A DNA stretch of 64,000 nucleotides, taken from NCBI GenBank assembly GCA_000233775.1, contig CP003096.1, forward strand, positions 1,824,501 through 1,888,500. The letters are read 5' to 3'. Below, in pieces: positions 22,799 to 32,661 of this stretch. The notes under the pieces were generated by a model. The model was not told the DNA's origin and did no database searches. It saw only the letters and a list, made by a program, of their open reading frames with translations. The first letter of the stretch is position 1. Each line of letters begins with the position of its first letter. Source of the stretch: Thermovirga lienii DSM 17291. GTDB taxonomy: Bacteria; Synergistota; Synergistia; Synergistales; Thermovirgaceae. The position numbers and the translations under genes are program-made.

Positions 22799-23671
22799 CT
22801 AAAAAGGCATCTCCCAGGATCTCCCCAAGGGTACGACCAGGACATTTGCCGGCGCCCTATGGCTGACCCTGAAGGCACAACTACCCACCCTGAACATTTC
22901 CGACCTTCCCACCCCCTGGGCTCCAACTATGATCAGCGTTGGTTTCTTCTCCTCAGCCTCGGAGATGAACTCGTCTACCACCCTTCCCGTCCTCATTGAA
23001 ACTTCTACATCTTTAACCCCTTTATTCCTTAAGGCCTCTGCCATCTCCTCAAGGCGGCTGAGCTCCAACTCTATGATCTCTTGTATCCTTCCTTTTGCCA
23101 CCACCTTCTCCAGAAGCTCTATATTGCTTCTTTCGTGAACATGCAAGATGGTGACCCGTTTCAACGCTCCTTCCACCTCTTGAACCAAACCTTCCAACAG
23201 TCTAAAGGCATTATATGAATGATCGGAGAAATCTATGCCTATCATCACGTGCTCCAGAGGTTCCTCGAAGCTTCCATCTTCTTTGGATTTGCACAGGAAC
23301 ATGGGCACAGGGCATTCCTCCAGTACCCTGTAAGCCGTCTCACCTAAAAACTTTGTCTGAAACTCCCTTTCCCCTCTTGACATGATCAGAAGAGAAGCCT
23401 TAAATTCATTCACCTTTTCCACTATTGTGTAGAAAGGAATTCCTTTTTCCACACAAACACCCACGTTAAAACCTCTATCCTGCAGCTCTTTCACCTGGCT
23501 TTTTAGCTTTTCCTCATTTTCTCTGTCCAGAGAGGATACACCCTTTCGTTCATCCAAAACATGGAGCAAAAGGACCTCTCCCACCTTTTTAGGAGGGAAT
23601 TTGCCCAGAGCCTTTACCTCGCAGAAGCTTCTCTCCTTTAGGTCCGTGGCCAATAGCACCTTCTTCAGCAT
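22799..23671 (-). CDS. Tandem-domain universal stress protein
   Basis: This protein of about 290 aa consists of two UspA domains (about 1-140 and 150-285). The ATP-binding signature is visible in the second (GAQGVGRSEMFRVGSCAFRVSHRAP). In the first the equivalent SRGEREFQTKFLGETAYRVLEECPVP is partly degenerate. I use the ATG at 23671 (MLKKVLLATDL), preceded by GGAAGGG, rather than a frame 18 codons longer. It is separated from the next Usp gene by a terminator, so it is probably a separate unit with the ferredoxin gene. Confidence 0.85.
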   Translation of the reverse strand: MLKKVLLATDLKERSFCEVKALGKFPPKKVGEVLLLHVLDERKGVSSLDRENEEKLKSQVKELQDRGFNVGVCVEKGIPFYTIVEKVNEFKASLLIMSRGEREFQTKFLGETAYRVLEECPVPMFLCKSKEDGSFEEPLEHVMIGIDFSDHSYNAFRLLEGLVQEVEGALKRVTILHVHERSNIELLEKVVAKGRIQEIIELELSRLEEMAEALRNKGVKDVEVSMRTGRVVDEFISEAEEKKPTLIIVGAQGVGRSEMFRVGSCAFRVSHRAPANVLVVPLGRSWEMPF

Positions 23672-23742
23672 CGCCGATCCCTTCCTTCGCAGAAAGATTA
23701 GCTGTTTCTGTGAAGATTTTACCACGTTTTAGCGTTACATAA

Positions 23743-23780
23743 AACACGGGACCGCTATTTAAGGGGCCCCGTGTTGGTTA
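23743..23780 (-). terminator. terminator of the arsenic operon
   Basis: On the reverse strand AACACGGG and CCCGTGTT pair around a 17-base loop and are followed by a TTATG stretch. It lies 24 bases downstream of the last gene of the arsenic operon. Confidence 0.55.
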
Positions 23781-23803
23781 ACTTTCCGAAAGAGCTTTTT
23801 TGC

Positions 23804-24667
23804 TCAGCGAATTACGAAAACAGAACAAGGTGCTTTGTGTATGATGGTCTCTGTAACGCTGCCAAGCATCATCTCCAGCAGCCTGCTTTTACCCTTGGCT
23901 CCCATGACCAATAGGGAGGGTTTCTTTTCCTCGGCGTATTTAAGTATGCCCGCTACAGGGTGGTCCTCTACTATGTGAGCTTCCACAAAGCTAAAACCCT
24001 TTTCCGCCAGGTTTTGGCGTATTTGTTCTATTTGTCTTTTTTCTTCCTCACTTATTTCCTGGATCTTTTCTGTGCTCATGTACTCCATGGCTCTCGTGTC
24101 GTGGACGTGCAGAATGTCCAATGTAGCACCAGGAATGTCTCCCATCTTCTCCAGGTACGAAAGCGCCTTTCCTGCTCCCTCGGAAAGGTCTGTAACGTAA
24201 AGGATTCTCTCAAATACGCTGTTACATGTAAGGGAGTAGGAGGCTTCCTCCTTTCCTTCACAAGGATAATTCCTCAAAAGCAAGACCGGCTGCCTGGCGT
24301 GATGGAGCACGTTTTCGGCTACACTGCCCAAAAACAGCCTCTTAAACAAATTGGAGCCCCTTGAACCCAACATAACAAGAGAGTAATCTTCTTCCTCCAA
24401 CCTGCGAAGGATTTCCTCTGTGGGATTTCCCTCCTCCAAATAGGTTTCCACCTTTGCGACACCGGCCTCCACAAGGCGCTTTTTCCACTTAGTTAGTGTC
24501 TCTTTGGCGAACTCCACAATCTTAGGATCGCCGTACGTATCGTGGAGGTCCACTACGTGCATCAGGTCAACCTGCTCTACTCCTGCTTTTACCATGTCCG
24601 AAATGCAGGAAAGGTAATTTTCCATTTTATGAGTCAAAACCACTGGAAAAAGAACTTTTCTGAACAT
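23804..24667 (-). CDS. Tandem-domain universal stress protein of the arsenic operon
   Basis: This 287-aa protein has two UspA domains with nucleotide-binding signatures (GSRGSNLFKRLFLGSVAENV in the first; GAKGKSRLLEMMLGSVTETI in the second) and starts MFRKVLFPVV. It begins 3 bases after the acr3 stop, so it is part of the arsenic operon. Usp proteins bind ATP and aid stress survival. A specific link to arsenite is inferred only from position. Confidence 0.88.
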   Translation of the reverse strand: MFRKVLFPVVLTHKMENYLSCISDMVKAGVEQVDLMHVVDLHDTYGDPKIVEFAKETLTKWKKRLVEAGVAKVETYLEEGNPTEEILRRLEEEDYSLVMLGSRGSNLFKRLFLGSVAENVLHHARQPVLLLRNYPCEGKEEASYSLTCNSVFERILYVTDLSEGAGKALSYLEKMGDIPGATLDILHVHDTRAMEYMSTEKIQEISEEEKRQIEQIRQNLAEKGFSFVEAHIVEDHPVAGILKYAEEKKPSLLVMGAKGKSRLLEMMLGSVTETIIHKAPCSVFVIR

Positions 24668-25796: not shown

Positions 25797-26102
25797 TTAC
25801 TCGAACCACAGTCTCAACCTTCCGACGCCCTCCACGAAGAACAGGTAGGAACCATCGGGCATCTTTCCTGTCTCCTCGAAGAAGTCCATAGCCTCCTTGC
25901 TTATCCAGCAGGTTACTTCCTCGCCCTGCACTTCGTAGGGGGTAAAAGATTCGGTATTTTCCGGTTTTCCCAAAAGGCCCGCCGGGCCTCTATAGACCAT
26001 TCATCAGCCCGCTATGTTGGTTCTTACTACTATGCAGAAATGTCCGCCGTGTTCTTTTACCTGCTGAAGCCAAAATCTGGATATCATCCTGATAGTTCTC
26101 AC
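25797..26102 (-). CDS. Small tandem-selenocysteine (UU) protein in the arsenic operon
   Basis: From a GTG at 26102, with GAGGAGG 8 bases upstream, one frame runs 101 residues to TAA if two adjacent TGA codons (26006-26001, codons 33-34) are read as selenocysteine. The TGAs follow a hydrophobic strand FCIVVRTNIAG and are followed by LLGKPENTESFTPYEVQGEE and a C-terminal LFFVEGVGRLRLWFE. This layout, and its paralogue at 30551-30850 with U-C at the same place, resembles the small family I recall as CC/Se motif (seleno)protein. Standard gene callers see only the last 67 residues. It sits between arsC and acr3. A redox or metal(loid)-binding role is inferred. Confidence 0.8.
25973..25991 (-). other. 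candidate SECIS hairpin after the tandem TGA
   Basis: On the reverse strand AGAGGCCC-GGC-GGGCCTTT makes an 8-bp stem (one G-U pair) whose loop starts 18 bases after the second TGA. Distance, stem length and a G at the first loop position all fit bacterial SECIS rules. Confidence 0.75.
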
Positions 26103-27828: not shown

Positions 27829-28641
27829 CTAATTAATTACTTCATCTAATCTAACAAAAGTATAACCCTTTTCAAGCAAAATGGGTATTGCTAGCTTCAA
27901 TCCCTCGGCCGTTTCCCCCTCTGGGTGGTTCATGTGGCATATTATTACGTCCCCTGGGCGAGCCTTAGAAACTGCTTCTGTAACCTTTTTTGACGAAAAG
28001 GTTGCACCTCCATCGCCCAATATGCTGTAACCTACTGGCTTCATGCCGAGGTCATAAACTATTTGTACAGCCACATCATCGTAATAATTGGTACCGGAAC
28101 GATAAAACCCGGGCCTTGTACCAGTCAATTTTTCTATTGCCCTGGCTCCTTTCTCCACTTCCTCCCACACTTCCCTTACGCTTGATGTACCTTTTATGCC
28201 GTACGCTTCCTTGCCGTTCACCGAGCAGGGCTTATGACGAAAACCGTGGTTTGCTATCAGAAATAGGGGGTTTTTCTCCAGGTTCTTGGCTTCATCGGGG
28301 TTGTCTCTGATCCATCGCGCATTCAAAAAAAGAGTGGCCTTTATGTTGTTCTCCACAAGAAAATCTACGAGCTCCCTGTCGTAGCCAGAACCGCCCTTTC
28401 CGCCGCAGGCATCCAGCGTCAGCGCCACCTGAAGGCCTGAAGGATCAAAACGGGTGACCACACCAGGAACGTCTTGCCCCCAAAACTTAGGGGTAAGGTT
28501 ACCATAGCGCTTATTTATCTCCTCCAGCGGTAAGGGGGCATTGCGACCTGCCTCAGTTTTCAACAACTCAACTCCAAAGACAAAAGCCCCCACCACTGAA
28601 AGCAATACCAGAAACCTCCAAAAGCGCAAAAGACCGGTCAC
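27829..28641 (-). CDS. Exported polysaccharide deacetylase family protein
   Basis: This 270-aa NodB-fold hydrolase has an N-terminal signal or anchor (FWRFLVLLSVVGAFVFG). Motif 1 is altered to TLDACGG instead of TFDDG. Motif 2 has the metal histidines in ANHGFRH, motif 3 is RPGFYRSGTNYYDD, and the late H is in ICHMNHPEG. It removes acetyl groups from sugars or acts on peptidoglycan. The GTG start overlaps the AOR stop as GTGA, so the two are coupled, although their functions look unrelated. Confidence 0.83.
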   Translation of the reverse strand: MTGLLRFWRFLVLLSVVGAFVFGVELLKTEAGRNAPLPLEEINKRYGNLTPKFWGQDVPGVVTRFDPSGLQVALTLDACGGKGGSGYDRELVDFLVENNIKATLFLNARWIRDNPDEAKNLEKNPLFLIANHGFRHKPCSVNGKEAYGIKGTSSVREVWEEVEKGARAIEKLTGTRPGFYRSGTNYYDDVAVQIVYDLGMKPVGYSILGDGGATFSSKKVTEAVSKARPGDVIICHMNHPEGETAEGLKLAIPILLEKGYTFVRLDEVIN

Positions 28642-30521
28642 CTCACCAAATAGTCCAACCCAAGTTCCTTGAGCTTCTCCCTAGTCGGACGGCCATTTTC
28701 GTCCCATCCTCGGGCCTGATAATACTCCATGAGCATCTTATCGTAATCGGAAATGACGCATTCTGCCTTTTGTGCGTACTTCCCAAAAGCAGGCTGGCTT
28801 AAAATTTTCTTAGGCAAAAGGTCGTCCTCTTTGCTTACCCCTTCTCGCACGTTGAAGGCCCTTTGGGCGTTATATGCCCTTTCTCCAACCTTGAGAAGAT
28901 CTTCGCCTGTAAAATCTTCGCCCGACAACGCTGTCATTAAATCTGCCAAGTCATCTACAGTTACTCCAGCATAGACATAGAATTTGCAAAAGCCCAAGAT
29001 ATCTGGCATCATTCCAAAATCATGAAGGAGCTTTACGGCTTTTCCCTTGCCCTCTTCTTCATACCTATCCACTTCATTGGGATCAGGCAGGCCATAGGAG
29101 ATAAGGCCAAAGTCCATCTTTCCTGAGTCCCAAGCCATTCCCTCAATAGGGTGGATGTGGTTCATTCCTGTGTTGGCAACACCGTAGGACAGCCCCAACG
29201 CTTTGCCTGAACGGGGGTCATGGGCCGGTCCTTCAAGTCCTTTGACGTGGACCGCAAGCTCTTGTGCCCCTTTACCAAGCTCGGACGCTGCTCTTTTTAC
29301 CCCGTCTGCCAAAAGATCTCCAAGGCCTTCCCTCGAAGCTATCTTTCTAAGGAGCTTCAGTGTCTCTTCCATGTCCCCCCATTCAAGAGGGCTTCCCTCG
29401 TTATCGCTGGGCTTTAGGATTCCCTTTTCAAAGCAGTCCATGGCGAAGGCAAGCACCGAACCAGCCGATATGGTATCAAGGCCAAACTCGTTGCAGAGCC
29501 AAGAGGCATGAACTGCTGCATCCACATCTTCGTTGAGCAGGTAAGCTGTAAAGGTGGTCATGGTCTCATATTCGCATCCCTCATGACAAGGGGTCATCCA
29601 TGGCCCCTTGTCAACCTTTGCCTTCCTGCCGCACCTCAAGATACATCCCTTGTAACAAGGCCTTGCCGACACGAAATTGTTCTCCTGAAAATGCTTAAAG
29701 AGCGCTGCGCCCTTGCCCCACGAATTGGCTTCCCAGTTTTTGGTAGGGAAATCCCCCGCTGCATCTGCCCTGGCAAGCTCTCCTGTTGTTCCCTCTTGGG
29801 CCCATATGGCATTTCCCGGGTCGCTTATCAGCCTTCGGCTTATATCTCTACACAGAGCCATGAACTTTTGGGCTTCACGGATGGGGAACTTTTTCTTTCC
29901 CCTCACTGCCACGGCAAGAAGGTTTTTGGATCCCATAACAGTTCCTGCACCACTTCTGCCAGCAGCCCTTGAAGCATCACCAAACATGACCGACGCAAAC
30001 TTAACTAGGTTCTCTCCGGCGGGACCTATACAGCCTACTTCGAAATCGCCGCCCAGCTCATCTTTTATGGCCTTTGTCTTCTTACTGGTGCTCAGTCCCT
30101 TCAGAGCAGGCCATGGGCGAACCTCCCAGCTTCCTTCATCTATTATCAAAACAGAAGGTTCTTCTGCTCTCCCTGTTATAACCACTACATCTATCCCGGC
30201 CTTCCTTAAAGCAGGCCCAAAATCGCTTCCGCTCCTGGATTCTCCCCAAACGCCAGTTAGAGGTGACTTGAAACACAAATCCACACTGCCGCACCCTGGT
30301 GCACCGGTACCTGTCAGTGGTCCAGTGGCAATTACTAGCGGAGCCTCACTGCCTAAAGGGTCATATTTGGCCTCTGTTTCCTTTAAGATTATGTCCGCAG
30401 CAAGCCCAGCTCCTCCCATGAAAAGGTTCAAGGCTCTCTCTTCTGCTTTCTCAACAAAGCATGTGCCAGTAGAAAGGTCTACCCTCAACATCTTTCCAAA
30501 TACAGATTTCAATCCCTGCAT
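28638..30521 (-). CDS. Aldehyde:ferredoxin oxidoreductase (tungsten AOR family)
   Basis: This 627-aa enzyme oxidises aldehydes to acids and reduces ferredoxin at a bis-pterin tungsten (or molybdenum) site. The N-terminal domain ends with the pterin-binding RSGAGTVMGSKNLLAVAVRG. The 4Fe-4S ligands are in CYKGCILRC plus a late C in LGFCKFYVY. I use the ATG at 30521 (MQGLKSVFGKMLRVDLS), preceded by GAGGAGG, rather than an 11-codon longer GTG form. It lies 29 bases downstream of the Sec-Cys small protein, and the two are clearly co-transcribed. Confidence 0.9.
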   Translation of the reverse strand: MQGLKSVFGKMLRVDLSTGTCFVEKAEERALNLFMGGAGLAADIILKETEAKYDPLGSEAPLVIATGPLTGTGAPGCGSVDLCFKSPLTGVWGESRSGSDFGPALRKAGIDVVVITGRAEEPSVLIIDEGSWEVRPWPALKGLSTSKKTKAIKDELGGDFEVGCIGPAGENLVKFASVMFGDASRAAGRSGAGTVMGSKNLLAVAVRGKKKFPIREAQKFMALCRDISRRLISDPGNAIWAQEGTTGELARADAAGDFPTKNWEANSWGKGAALFKHFQENNFVSARPCYKGCILRCGRKAKVDKGPWMTPCHEGCEYETMTTFTAYLLNEDVDAAVHASWLCNEFGLDTISAGSVLAFAMDCFEKGILKPSDNEGSPLEWGDMEETLKLLRKIASREGLGDLLADGVKRAASELGKGAQELAVHVKGLEGPAHDPRSGKALGLSYGVANTGMNHIHPIEGMAWDSGKMDFGLISYGLPDPNEVDRYEEEGKGKAVKLLHDFGMMPDILGFCKFYVYAGVTVDDLADLMTALSGEDFTGEDLLKVGERAYNAQRAFNVREGVSKEDDLLPKKILSQPAFGKYAQKAECVISDYDKMLMEYYQARGWDENGRPTREKLKELGLDYLVR

Positions 30522-30550: not shown

Positions 30551-30850
30551 TCACGGAATAATGGCGGTAGATATGAACAAAATATCGCTCCGACGAAGGC
30601 TGCCTCGTTTGAAGCGAACCTCGCCACCAAGGAAAGTCATATCCTTAGGCACCCACAAGGAGACGCCACCCTGGCTTATGAGCCTGTAATTGTCTTTTTC
30701 CCTTGGAGAACCGCCCTGCACGAGGGCTTCTTGTCTGCTGCATCAGCCACCGGTTCTAACTACCACAACATATGCTTCGTTGCCACTTTTCCTGAAGAAC
30801 TCTAAATCTTCAGCCTTCAAAACCAGGCGCTCATCGTTTTGGTTTTTCAC
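30551..30850 (-). CDS. Small selenocysteine-cysteine (UC) protein upstream of AOR
   Basis: From a GTG at 30850 the frame is open for 99 residues to TGA at 30551, apart from one internal TGA (30745-30743, codon 36) directly followed by a Cys codon. The protein reads as a helix (LVLKAEDLEFFRKSG), a strand YVVVVRTGG, then U36-C37, then QGGSPREKDNYRLISQGG, VSLWVPKDM and a basic tail. It is a paralogue of the tandem-TGA protein at 25797-26102: both have V-V-R-T before the Sec position and similar spacing after it. An in-frame ATG 14 codons upstream is an alternative start, with a poorer ribosome site. No protein-coding call covers this otherwise empty 380-base gap. Function unknown; a redox or metal role is inferred. 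Confidence 0.82.
30707..30731 (-). other. candidate SECIS hairpin in the UC small protein gene
   Basis: On the reverse strand AGAA-GCCCT-CGTGC-AGGGC-GG-TTCT makes nine perfect pairs with a two-base GG bulge. The CGTGC loop starts 21 bases after the TGA. This is a textbook geometry for a bacterial SECIS and strongly supports the Sec reading. Confidence 0.82.
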
Positions 30851-30906: not shown

Positions 30907-32661
30907 TTACTGCATCACTGCCAACACAAGCACAGCTACCCAGCTAGCGCGCCCTTCCTGCTTTAGTACCCTAGAGGCCTCGAAAATGGATGCCCCAGAC
31001 CTTACAACATCATCCAAAAGCACAATCCTTTTTCCTTGGACCTTTACGCTCTTTGAAAAACCGTAGGCATTAGACACCGCGTTGAATCTCTCCTTTGGAT
31101 TGGGGATCTTCTTTAGCTCAGGCACAGGCCTTTTTTTAATGAATGCCTCTTTGGCTAAAGGAACTCTGGTCCTAATAGTCAACTCCTCTGCCAAAATCTC
31201 CAATGGCTCCTTGCGGTTTCTACCGCCAAAAGGTGGCACAAAAACCAAAATATGGGGACTTATCTCTAAAAGTTTGGGAGCTAACAGGGCTGCTATTTCT
31301 TTCACTGCCTTGTATTCTGCTTTATGCTTAAACCTCTTGAAGAGTTTTTCGAGGTCCGAAAGGTCTGCTTGAAGGATATTTCTGCACGGCCTTATAACTC
31401 CCAGAGCATATCCCTCATCCCAAGGCGTCTTACCAGGGAAGAATTTTTTAAGATCCTCCATGGGGTGGCTTTCTCTTGGCGTTTTGGTTGCAGCAAGACG
31501 AAGGGCATCTTTTCCCAAAAAATTAACGACCTGATCCACAGCATCCATAAGAAGCCGCTTTTTCTTGCGTTTTTCTTCCTCGAAAAGGGTTACCTGGACC
31601 ATATCCCTGGGGATAAGGTCTTTCAAGGTGAGCCCTACCTTCCTGTACAAGTAGCCCCGCTTGTATATCTTCTCCAGTGCCTCCTTTGCCGCTTCGACTA
31701 GGTCGTGAGTGCAGTCAGATGGGACCTTCAGTTTTATGTTCGCGCTGTTATTGTACTGAGGAAGGTCCGTCCTGTAAGGGTTTGTATGAAGGGATACCTG
31801 CAGGCTTTTGCACAAAAGTTTTTCTTTTCTGAGGATGAGGGCAGCTTCCTCTACGTGCTCCAACAGGGCCACCCATATTTCTTCCAATTCTCTCACAGGG
31901 TGCCTGAAACTTGGGGCAATCTGTATGGATTTTCTGGGCTGACGCTCTGCCGTGAAGGGGTAGCACACCACTCCTCTCAATTCTTTCCATGTGGACCATA
32001 CCAAGGCAGGAAAATTTTCTAAAATCCATTTTTCGTCGGAAACAAAAAGGTCATAACCTGAAGTCAACCCTATTGAGCGGAGTTTACCGGCAGTCTTTCG
32101 TCCTATACCCCAAACCTCCTCTATGGGTATCCTTTTAAGTACCTCTTTGGCCACTTCTTCGGAAGATATCCAGAACACTCCTTCGTGAAGCTCTTCCCTT
32201 TTGGCTATGTACCCTGCTGCCTTGGCTAAGGTCTTTGTGTTTCCTATGCCGATGGAAACAGGAATGCCTGTTTCTTCTTTGATGAAATTTCGCACCTGTC
32301 TGGAAAAGCCTACCGGGTCCTCTTTATGAATGCCCGTTAGGTGAAGGTAGGCTTCGTCTATTGAAGAAACTTCAACTTCAGGGACCAAAAGGTGAAGGCA
32401 CTTCATGACTTTCCGCGACATTATGCGGTAGTACTCGTGGTCGCCTTTTAAAACCACAACACGATTTTTCCGGCAAAGGGCCTTTACGGTAAAAAAAGGA
32501 ACGGCCATACCTATACCTAGTGCCTTTGCCTCGTTGGACCTTGCTACTACGCAGCCGTCGTTATGGGAAAGCACAATGACAGGCCGCCCTTCAAGAGACG
32601 GGTCCCTGACTCTCTCGCAGGAAACAAAAAAATTATTGCAGTCGCATAGGGCTAAGAGCAC
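30907..32661 (-). CDS. Y-family DNA polymerase (UmuC-like) fused to a phosphoribosyltransferase domain
   Basis: This 584-aa protein starts as a UmuC-type lesion-bypass polymerase. Its first metal-site segment is CDCNNFFVSCERV, followed by DGCVVARSNEAKALGI and the SSIDEAYL catalytic acids (about 100). Helix-hairpin-helix IEEVWGIGRKTAGKL and a little-finger domain reach to about 350, then a UmuC-type C-terminal region with GKDALRLAA. Beyond residue about 440 is a ComF-like type I phosphoribosyltransferase ending with the PRPP loop VLLDDVVRSGAS (about 548-559). UmuC normally ends near 420-430 aa. The frame is continuous and there is no internal ribosome site, so this is a true fusion. It precedes the Sec-Cys small protein and follows the thioesterase gene. 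Confidence 0.85.
   Translation of the reverse strand: MLLALCDCNNFFVSCERVRDPSLEGRPVIVLSHNDGCVVARSNEAKALGIGMAVPFFTVKALCRKNRVVVLKGDHEYYRIMSRKVMKCLHLLVPEVEVSSIDEAYLHLTGIHKEDPVGFSRQVRNFIKEETGIPVSIGIGNTKTLAKAAGYIAKREELHEGVFWISSEEVAKEVLKRIPIEEVWGIGRKTAGKLRSIGLTSGYDLFVSDEKWILENFPALVWSTWKELRGVVCYPFTAERQPRKSIQIAPSFRHPVRELEEIWVALLEHVEEAALILRKEKLLCKSLQVSLHTNPYRTDLPQYNNSANIKLKVPSDCTHDLVEAAKEALEKIYKRGYLYRKVGLTLKDLIPRDMVQVTLFEEEKRKKKRLLMDAVDQVVNFLGKDALRLAATKTPRESHPMEDLKKFFPGKTPWDEGYALGVIRPCRNILQADLSDLEKLFKRFKHKAEYKAVKEIAALLAPKLLEISPHILVFVPPFGGRNRKEPLEILAEELTIRTRVPLAKEAFIKKRPVPELKKIPNPKERFNAVSNAYGFSKSVKVQGKRIVLLDDVVRSGASIFEASRVLKQEGRASWVAVLVLAVMQ

Follow-up and report, generated by a model that had tools for sequence, protein, structure and literature searches.

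A predicted selenoprotein of Thermovirga lienii as a probable remote relative of A-type carriers

The minus-strand gene at positions 30850–30551 of the window, the whole 64,000-nucleotide stretch of Thermovirga lienii DSM 17291 analyzed here (G000:C1:1824501–1888500), is predicted to encode a genuine selenoprotein, its UGA being decoded as selenocysteine (Sec) via a downstream SECIS element; we put the probability of this reading at about 0.96. The group to which the protein belongs is very probably a distant offshoot of the superfamily of A-type carriers (IscA/SufA/ErpA/HesB), as sequence profiles and a structural model suggest, with Sec replacing Cys35 of IscA. For a selenoprotein group that is named but uncharacterized, these results supply a likely fold, a homology and an active site that can be tested. 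The original prediction, which read the gene as a selenoprotein perhaps serving a neighboring tungsten aldehyde ferredoxin oxidoreductase (AOR), holds in its first part and is weakened in its second, and it had missed both the kinship with NCBIfam family NF041239 and the likely fold.

Gene, selenocysteine codon and SECIS hairpin

The source genome comprises 1,999,646 bases in two contigs (1,967,774 and 31,872). On the minus strand of the window, the selenoprotein frame runs for 99 codons from a GTG start (30850–30848) to a TGA stop (30553–30551) and is open except for a single in-frame TGA (codon 36, 30745–30743), the next codon being TGC (Cys37) and the translation around this site reading VRTGGUCSRQE; the remaining two minus-strand frames over the gene contain stops. 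The C-terminus, FISTAIIP, is devoid of Cys, leaving Sec36 and Cys37 only. Upstream lies a gene for a UmuC-like polymerase/ComF-like phosphoribosyltransferase fusion (30907–32661, minus strand). On the other side the AOR gene (AFOR_N/AFOR_C, 28638–30521, minus strand) follows after a gap of 29 nt between the selenoprotein stop and a likely ATG at 30521, a start assigned by reading and preceded by AGGAGG. Both the 99-residue frame with its TGA-TGC and its location between polymerase fusion and AOR agree with the original prediction, to which the strand is now added. No clear AGGAGG precedes the GTG start of the selenoprotein gene. On the opposite strand, a frame antisense to the gene (30551–30802, plus) is open for 84 codons.

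All four genes proposed for verification in the original prediction are present, each scoring over cut-off: selA (594.5 bits) and selB (374.9 bits) side by side, the gene for tRNA-Sec (selC, 77.5 bits), and selD (347.4 bits), which also contains a TGA. The Synergistetes are described as a selenoprotein-rich phylum (PMC5029168). The window protein was matched in 39 of 61 genomes, its own included, and selB scores over cut-off in 35 of these 39; the four exceptions are genomes of 56–86% completeness. No match was obtained in four genomes of 97–100% completeness without selB over cut-off, nor in 18 further genomes of the 61 in which selB is present. Among the 56 matches listed for the 61 genomes, 51 carry one internal TGA and five carry none, and by reading of the sequences Cys occupies the Sec site in 10 of 17 UGA-less homologues. 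Since homologues with Sec or Cys at the TGA position exist and the sel genes are present, neither of the two grounds on which the original prediction was to be abandoned, absence of such homologues or of selB/selC, applies. In the phylum at large, the single-Sec profile A1 was matched in 73 of 185 genomes. The 212 matches collected were reduced to 142 by removal of repeated DNA, and near copies persist in the set (L175–L177; genomes G023 and G031). A pattern scan of genome contigs with the window protein returned 114 pattern matches and no relatives.

The sole other genome of the genus found, a Thermovirga sp. MAG (G001), harbors an orthologue with 69% identity and the same UGA-UGC. Comparison of the two genes gives pN/pS ratios of 0.29 for the part preceding the UGA and 0.22 for the part following it, pointing to purifying selection on both sides.

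Downstream of the UGA, a hairpin of nine pairs with a GG bulge can be drawn at 30731–30707 (minus strand, loop 30722–30718), as originally proposed, the first loop base being 21 nt after the TGA. Bacterial SECIS elements lie just downstream of the UGA, with the loop 16–37 nt from it and a G in the first two loop bases (PMC13188914), and the hairpin satisfies the four constraints that the legend of Fig. 2 of that article gives. Folding of a 41-base stretch yields this hairpin as the structure of lowest energy (−8.8 kcal/mol); when longer stretches are folded, the inner five pairs persist and the outer four find other partners. In the G001 orthologue, an identical run of 26 bases spans 24 of the 25 hairpin bases despite pS values of 0.49–0.84, and a G-U pair replaces the outermost A-U, with RNAfold favoring a shifted pairing (−11.9). 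At 120 related Sec sites, the 54 bases from the UGA onward fold with a mean z of −1.16, whereas three control offsets give −0.26, −0.27, and −0.41 (p < 1e-7, the sites not being independent).

Across 90 single-Sec genes in one ungapped register, the six inner pairs of the stem are formed in 470 of 540 cells, against 0.29–0.59 of cells in shifted registers; the window gene forms five of the six and shares its register with other Sec-encoding genes. The 17 homologues without UGA, which include one duplicate, L120, still pairing, form pairs in 46 of 102 cells, at the background given by their own shifted registers (0.29–0.58). These homologues were positioned by an A-L-V-like motif, and the register of the Y-S-C group was set by this motif, not by Cys. 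A wobble base of an Ala/Val codon (nt 20) pairs with a first codon base (nt 30) in 74 of the 78 genes of that register, as 41 T-A, 31 C-G, and 2 G-C pairs. The silent base at nt 20 thereby goes with mostly Ser/Asn versus mostly Gly/Asp downstream, an association best explained by selection on the RNA stem. On the best tree the state of this pair changes eight times, with three independent pairs on supported branches, a number insufficient for a sign test, and the covariation test covers the inner six pairs, the outer four being drawn from the window gene and G001 only. Because the same bases encode the SECIS stem, conservation of the stretch after Sec is partly explained. Within the scope of our literature search, and as far as searched, the covarying stem is new here.

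Were the TGA an ordinary stop, the frame would be a chance or decayed gene, a view with which a GTG start lacking a clear AGGAGG, the open plus-strand frame and a product known from sequence only are compatible. It is nevertheless extremely improbable, given that the UGA is conserved, that purifying selection continues past it and that the SECIS stem covaries, and on these grounds a chance open frame was rejected. The same observations, together with the sel genes, support the claim of a genuine selenoprotein.

Family and predicted fold

The window protein matches NF041239 (CC/Se motif family (seleno)protein) at E 6.4e-8 (positions 8–67 of 91) and 32.6 bits, below the cut-off of 40 bits, which is exceeded by one paralogue with a C-terminal Cys (C1:871909, 40.7 bits). 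Five paralogues are found in the T. lienii genome, namely C1:871909, 1488612, 1679664, the window copy, and a copy with two TGAs at 1850318. In alignment A2, NF041239 matches 62 of 69 members at E <= 0.1, and the Sec/Cys site is aligned within this recognized set. A2 consists of 69 of the 90 rows of a redundancy-filtered list from which the relatives with two adjacent Sec (UU, see below) are excluded; it differs from the 90 single-Sec genes and leaves out most Sec-less members as well as some with Sec, L159, L205, and L207–L210 among them. From sequence comparison, we regard the window protein as a divergent relative of the uncharacterized NF041239, expanded in Synergistota. All comparison genomes belong to this phylum, the Moorella members of NF041239 lying outside the set.

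In Table 1 of PMC13188914, NF041239 appears as a hypothetical protein with the motif CxxU, the prediction being for Moorella thermoacetica, and the entry gives neither function nor fold. No mention beyond this article was returned by a full-text literature search for NF041239. As a motif of the present group CxxU was rejected, none of the 90 single-Sec members having Cys three residues before Sec; Gly directly precedes Sec in 63 of them. The description as a Sec-Cys protein, part of the original prediction, is correct for the window copy and was rejected as a family motif, as only 15 of the 90 single-Sec members share it.

Kinship with A-type carriers emerges from remote-homology searches. Comparison by hhalign with profile A4, built from E. 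coli IscA, SufA, and ErpA plus 14 viral relatives, gave a probability of 84.6 and an E-value of 6.8e-6 over 89 columns, placing Sec36 over Cys35 of IscA. Its score of 35.2 was reached by none of 200 column shuffles, the best of which scored 25.9. PF01521 matches nine of the 69 members at E <= 1 (best 2.3e-5), with no match to the window protein itself at that threshold. Searches against PDB sequences returned no match for profile A1 and one match at E 1 for profile A3; the eight matches of A2 (E 0.01–0.84) are all circumsporozoite-protein chains or fusions and were taken as chance.

The AlphaFold model of the window protein (69 sequences; pLDDT 86.9, pTM 0.75) points in the same direction. Foldseek places SufA, IscA, and others of the superfamily at ranks 1–10 (best E 0.011, probability 0.99), and the probability falls to 0.35 at rank 10 and to 0.07 at rank 11, with no E-value below 0.001. 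All nine entries listed by VIA likewise belong to the superfamily (Z 3.8–6.7), no chain outside it being among the entries listed at Z >= 2; DsrR, AQ_1857, HI1723, and YneR are here taken to be superfamily members. As the tool cautions that Z values below 8 are common, the case for kinship depends on sequence and structure pointing to the same superfamily. The homology of this group to A-type carriers is, as far as searched and within the scope of our literature search, new here.

Canonical A-type carriers were not found over the PF01521 cut-off in any of 182 genomes of the phylum, and the sole sub-threshold match in these genomes (18.1 bits) is a UGA-bearing member of the present group. Some loss of sensitivity may contribute, since the same search matched nine of 14 control genomes and missed five, including Synechococcus, where a carrier is expected. 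Sec-containing HesB-type proteins are already known (PMC13188914, PMC9312934, PMC1794560). The corresponding model NF038090 (IscA_HesB_Se) weakly matches two of the 69 members (best E 0.036), and neither it nor TIGR01911 matches the window protein at E <= 1.

Neighborhoods and the tandem-Sec relative

In the original prediction, the selenoprotein was thought perhaps to handle electrons or the W/Se cofactor chemistry of the tungsten AOR. A dedicated partnership of this kind is favored by the same-strand orientation at a distance of 29 nt and by adjacency to AOR in both Thermovirga genomes. The other neighbor, the UmuC/ComF gene, is not adjacent in G001, where five predicted opposite-strand genes separate it from the selenoprotein gene and AOR stays. 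Against it, none of seven AOR orthologues outside the genus (49–52% identity, a further 48% fragment, G032:C27, being left out) has a family member within 1.5 kb, and the T. lienii genome alone contains seven AOR-like matches at E <= 1e-80. Among 20 AOR loci, a family member is nearby only at the two Thermovirga loci. Conversely, AOR lies within 4 kb of only two of 93 non-UU members (76 Sec genes and 17 UGA-less homologues, taken from the larger loci, 93 of 107), both from Thermovirga. Since the link holds in two of two Thermovirga genomes and in none of seven cases outside the genus, an AOR-specific role is weakly supported. The partnership was rejected as a family trait, the link to AOR is lineage-specific and local, an AOR-directed role of the window protein is unlikely, and that of a dedicated partner is rather improbable. 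Three of the AOR orthologues are themselves listed with one internal TGA (G017:C10:130306, G023:C1:3064969, and G031:C1:3153501; L302, L307, and L308), which may reflect Sec in AOR or, alternatively, an edge effect. AOR-like matches with one internal TAG are also listed, among them G000:C2:29913–31703 on the small contig and G001:C47:1311–3101.

The commonest context of the family is a different one, with RluA within 4 kb of 34 of the 93 non-UU members, together with YhaM and glutamate dehydrogenase. Another context of paralogues and relatives is an SLT/NMO pair, and the paralogue at G000:C1:1679664 (L046) and relatives L048 and L062 are located at a NiFe-hydrogenase/NuoG-like cluster that also encodes a J-domain protein and a maturation protease.

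A second relevant gene is located in the window 4.4 kb from the selenoprotein gene, between arsC and the gene of an ACR3 arsenite pump and behind an ArsR/ArsE-like fusion. It runs on the minus strand from a GTG start at 26102 to a TAA stop at 25797 (both by reading) and contains an in-frame tandem TGA-TGA (26006–26001), predicted to encode two adjacent Sec residues (UU). The UU group is a divergent relative of the single-Sec group (hhalign probability 90.4, E 1.4e-6), and matches to the UU protein occur in 32 of the 185 phylum genomes. Among the 38 matches listed, 31 carry two TGAs, one carries one and six carry none; the 35 distinct members comprise 30 UU, four CC and one Phe-Cys, with neither U-C nor C-U. 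Most of the 30 UU genes have a predicted GGCCC...GGGCC hairpin after the tandem TGA. For the UU-protein model (pLDDT 95.1), the top match of the fold search is E. coli IscA (E 0.006, probability 0.96) and the ten best VIA matches are of the A-type-carrier superfamily (Z 3.4–5.0); in direct comparison of the UU group with A-type carriers, hhalign reaches a probability of 5 and an E-value of 0.0078 only.

No entry of Table 1 of PMC13188914, some entries of which list no motif, contains U-U, and no description of an adjacent Sec pair was among the matches listed in the full-text literature search, an earlier mention being possible. A standard gene caller is expected to cut such a gene at the first TGA, which matters for a protein matched this widely and often near arsenic genes. 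Searches by tblastn with the UU protein and L044 in plasmids and with the window protein in phages gave no match. Genomes G023, G031, G015, G032, and G038 (L184, L188, L191, and L192) carry a UU copy and a CC paralogue without TGA ~3–10 kb apart, and such genomes allow naturally paired Sec and Cys forms to be compared. In the window, ACR3 is followed by two universal-stress-protein-like genes (22799–24667, minus strand); counting the window, there are six loci in which genes from this cluster lie close to the UU gene.

ACR3, ArsC or ArsP is encoded within 4 kb of 14 of the 35 UU-group members, compared with one of 93 in the other group (p 1.7e-8, kinship ignored). This association, and the location of the window copy 3.4–4.0 kb from ars genes, would suit a factor that binds or reduces metalloids, its selenol and thiol groups binding As(III) or a similar species, a reading for which the UU relative is the clearest case. 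For the window protein such a role is very doubtful, as the sole non-UU member near ars genes is the window copy itself and G001 has the AOR pair with no UU match. Within the UU group, 21 of the 35 members have none of the three genes within 4 kb.

Proposed function and comparison with known systems

Cys directly follows Sec in 15 of the 90 single-Sec members, and none of these 15 has a C-terminal Cys, compared with 45 of the other 75 (30 without; Fisher p 1.5e-5). Members with neither Cys thus number 30 of 90, one of which, L027, is cut at its tail by a contig end and was left out of the tree trait counts. On the best tree there are five changes of the U-C trait, with one independent pair on supported branches, and with kinship taken into account the mutual exclusion of adjacent and C-terminal Cys is not significant. 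It is a hint, read from the sequences, at a swap of the partner Cys between the two positions, and on this hint the preferred mechanism is based.

We propose that in the window copy Sec36 and Cys37 may form a reversible selenenylsulfide. Because Cys directly follows Sec and a C-terminal Cys is absent, the window protein would be a small selenol/thiol redox protein, serving as a reductant or in repair, and not a cluster carrier of the three-cysteine type; with its gene immediately preceding that of AOR in Thermovirga, it may hold AOR or its surroundings in a reduced state. Selenol/thiol redox chemistry of Sec36-Cys37 on a carrier scaffold is the function that we tentatively rank first, at somewhat under even odds, followed by that of a metal or cluster carrier. 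The 30 members with neither Cys speak against the redox function, as a selenenylsulfide mechanism leaves them unexplained.

The second-ranked function is that of a Sec-ligated A-type carrier, in which Sec would take the place of Cys35 and iron, an Fe-S cluster or another metal would be held at the dimer interface and handed to client enzymes such as the neighboring AOR. We consider this possible, with appreciably lower probability. It draws on the superfamily kinship with Sec placed over Cys35, and on the absence of canonical carriers over cut-off from all 182 genomes, the sub-threshold match being a Sec group member. The C-terminal Cys of 45 of the 90 single-Sec members, where carriers have their CGC motif, fits as well, as do the location of one paralogue beside the NiFe-hydrogenase/NuoG-like cluster with its J-domain protein and that of the window copy beside AOR. 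Yet the window copy offers Sec36 and Cys37 only, with no C-terminal Cys, and the commonest context (RluA, YhaM, and glutamate dehydrogenase) lacks an Fe-S theme. Moreover, in 105 of the 185 genomes the single-Sec profile and the UU protein both lack a match, and carriers were likewise not found there, so the group is not a general replacement for carriers.

Redox function on a carrier scaffold, our preferred reading, and the carrier alternative both place Sec at the first cluster-binding Cys of IscA, which offers a clear test of Sec on a metal-carrier scaffold. In a wider and speculative perspective, which we judge improbable as a whole, Synergistota would have radiated a Sec version of the A-type scaffold whose copies are specialized by their partner residue, a C-terminal Cys, a vicinal Cys or a second adjacent Sec, with Sec-ligated clusters or a tandem-diselenol arsenic-binding protein as outcomes. 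To our knowledge, neither Sec-ligated clusters nor a tandem-diselenol arsenic-binding protein has been described before.

Three known systems serve for comparison. The window protein is homologous to NF041239, yet it scores below the cut-off of that model, and the family motif CxxU is absent from the single-Sec members. The HesB-like selenoprotein TIGR01911 has UxGP as its listed motif, unlike the window copy. With the A-type carriers of PF01521, the likeness consists in the predicted fold, the length and the Sec at the first cluster Cys site; whereas these carriers have the C-terminal CGC cysteines, the window copy is without a C-terminal Cys and instead has Sec with a vicinal Cys.
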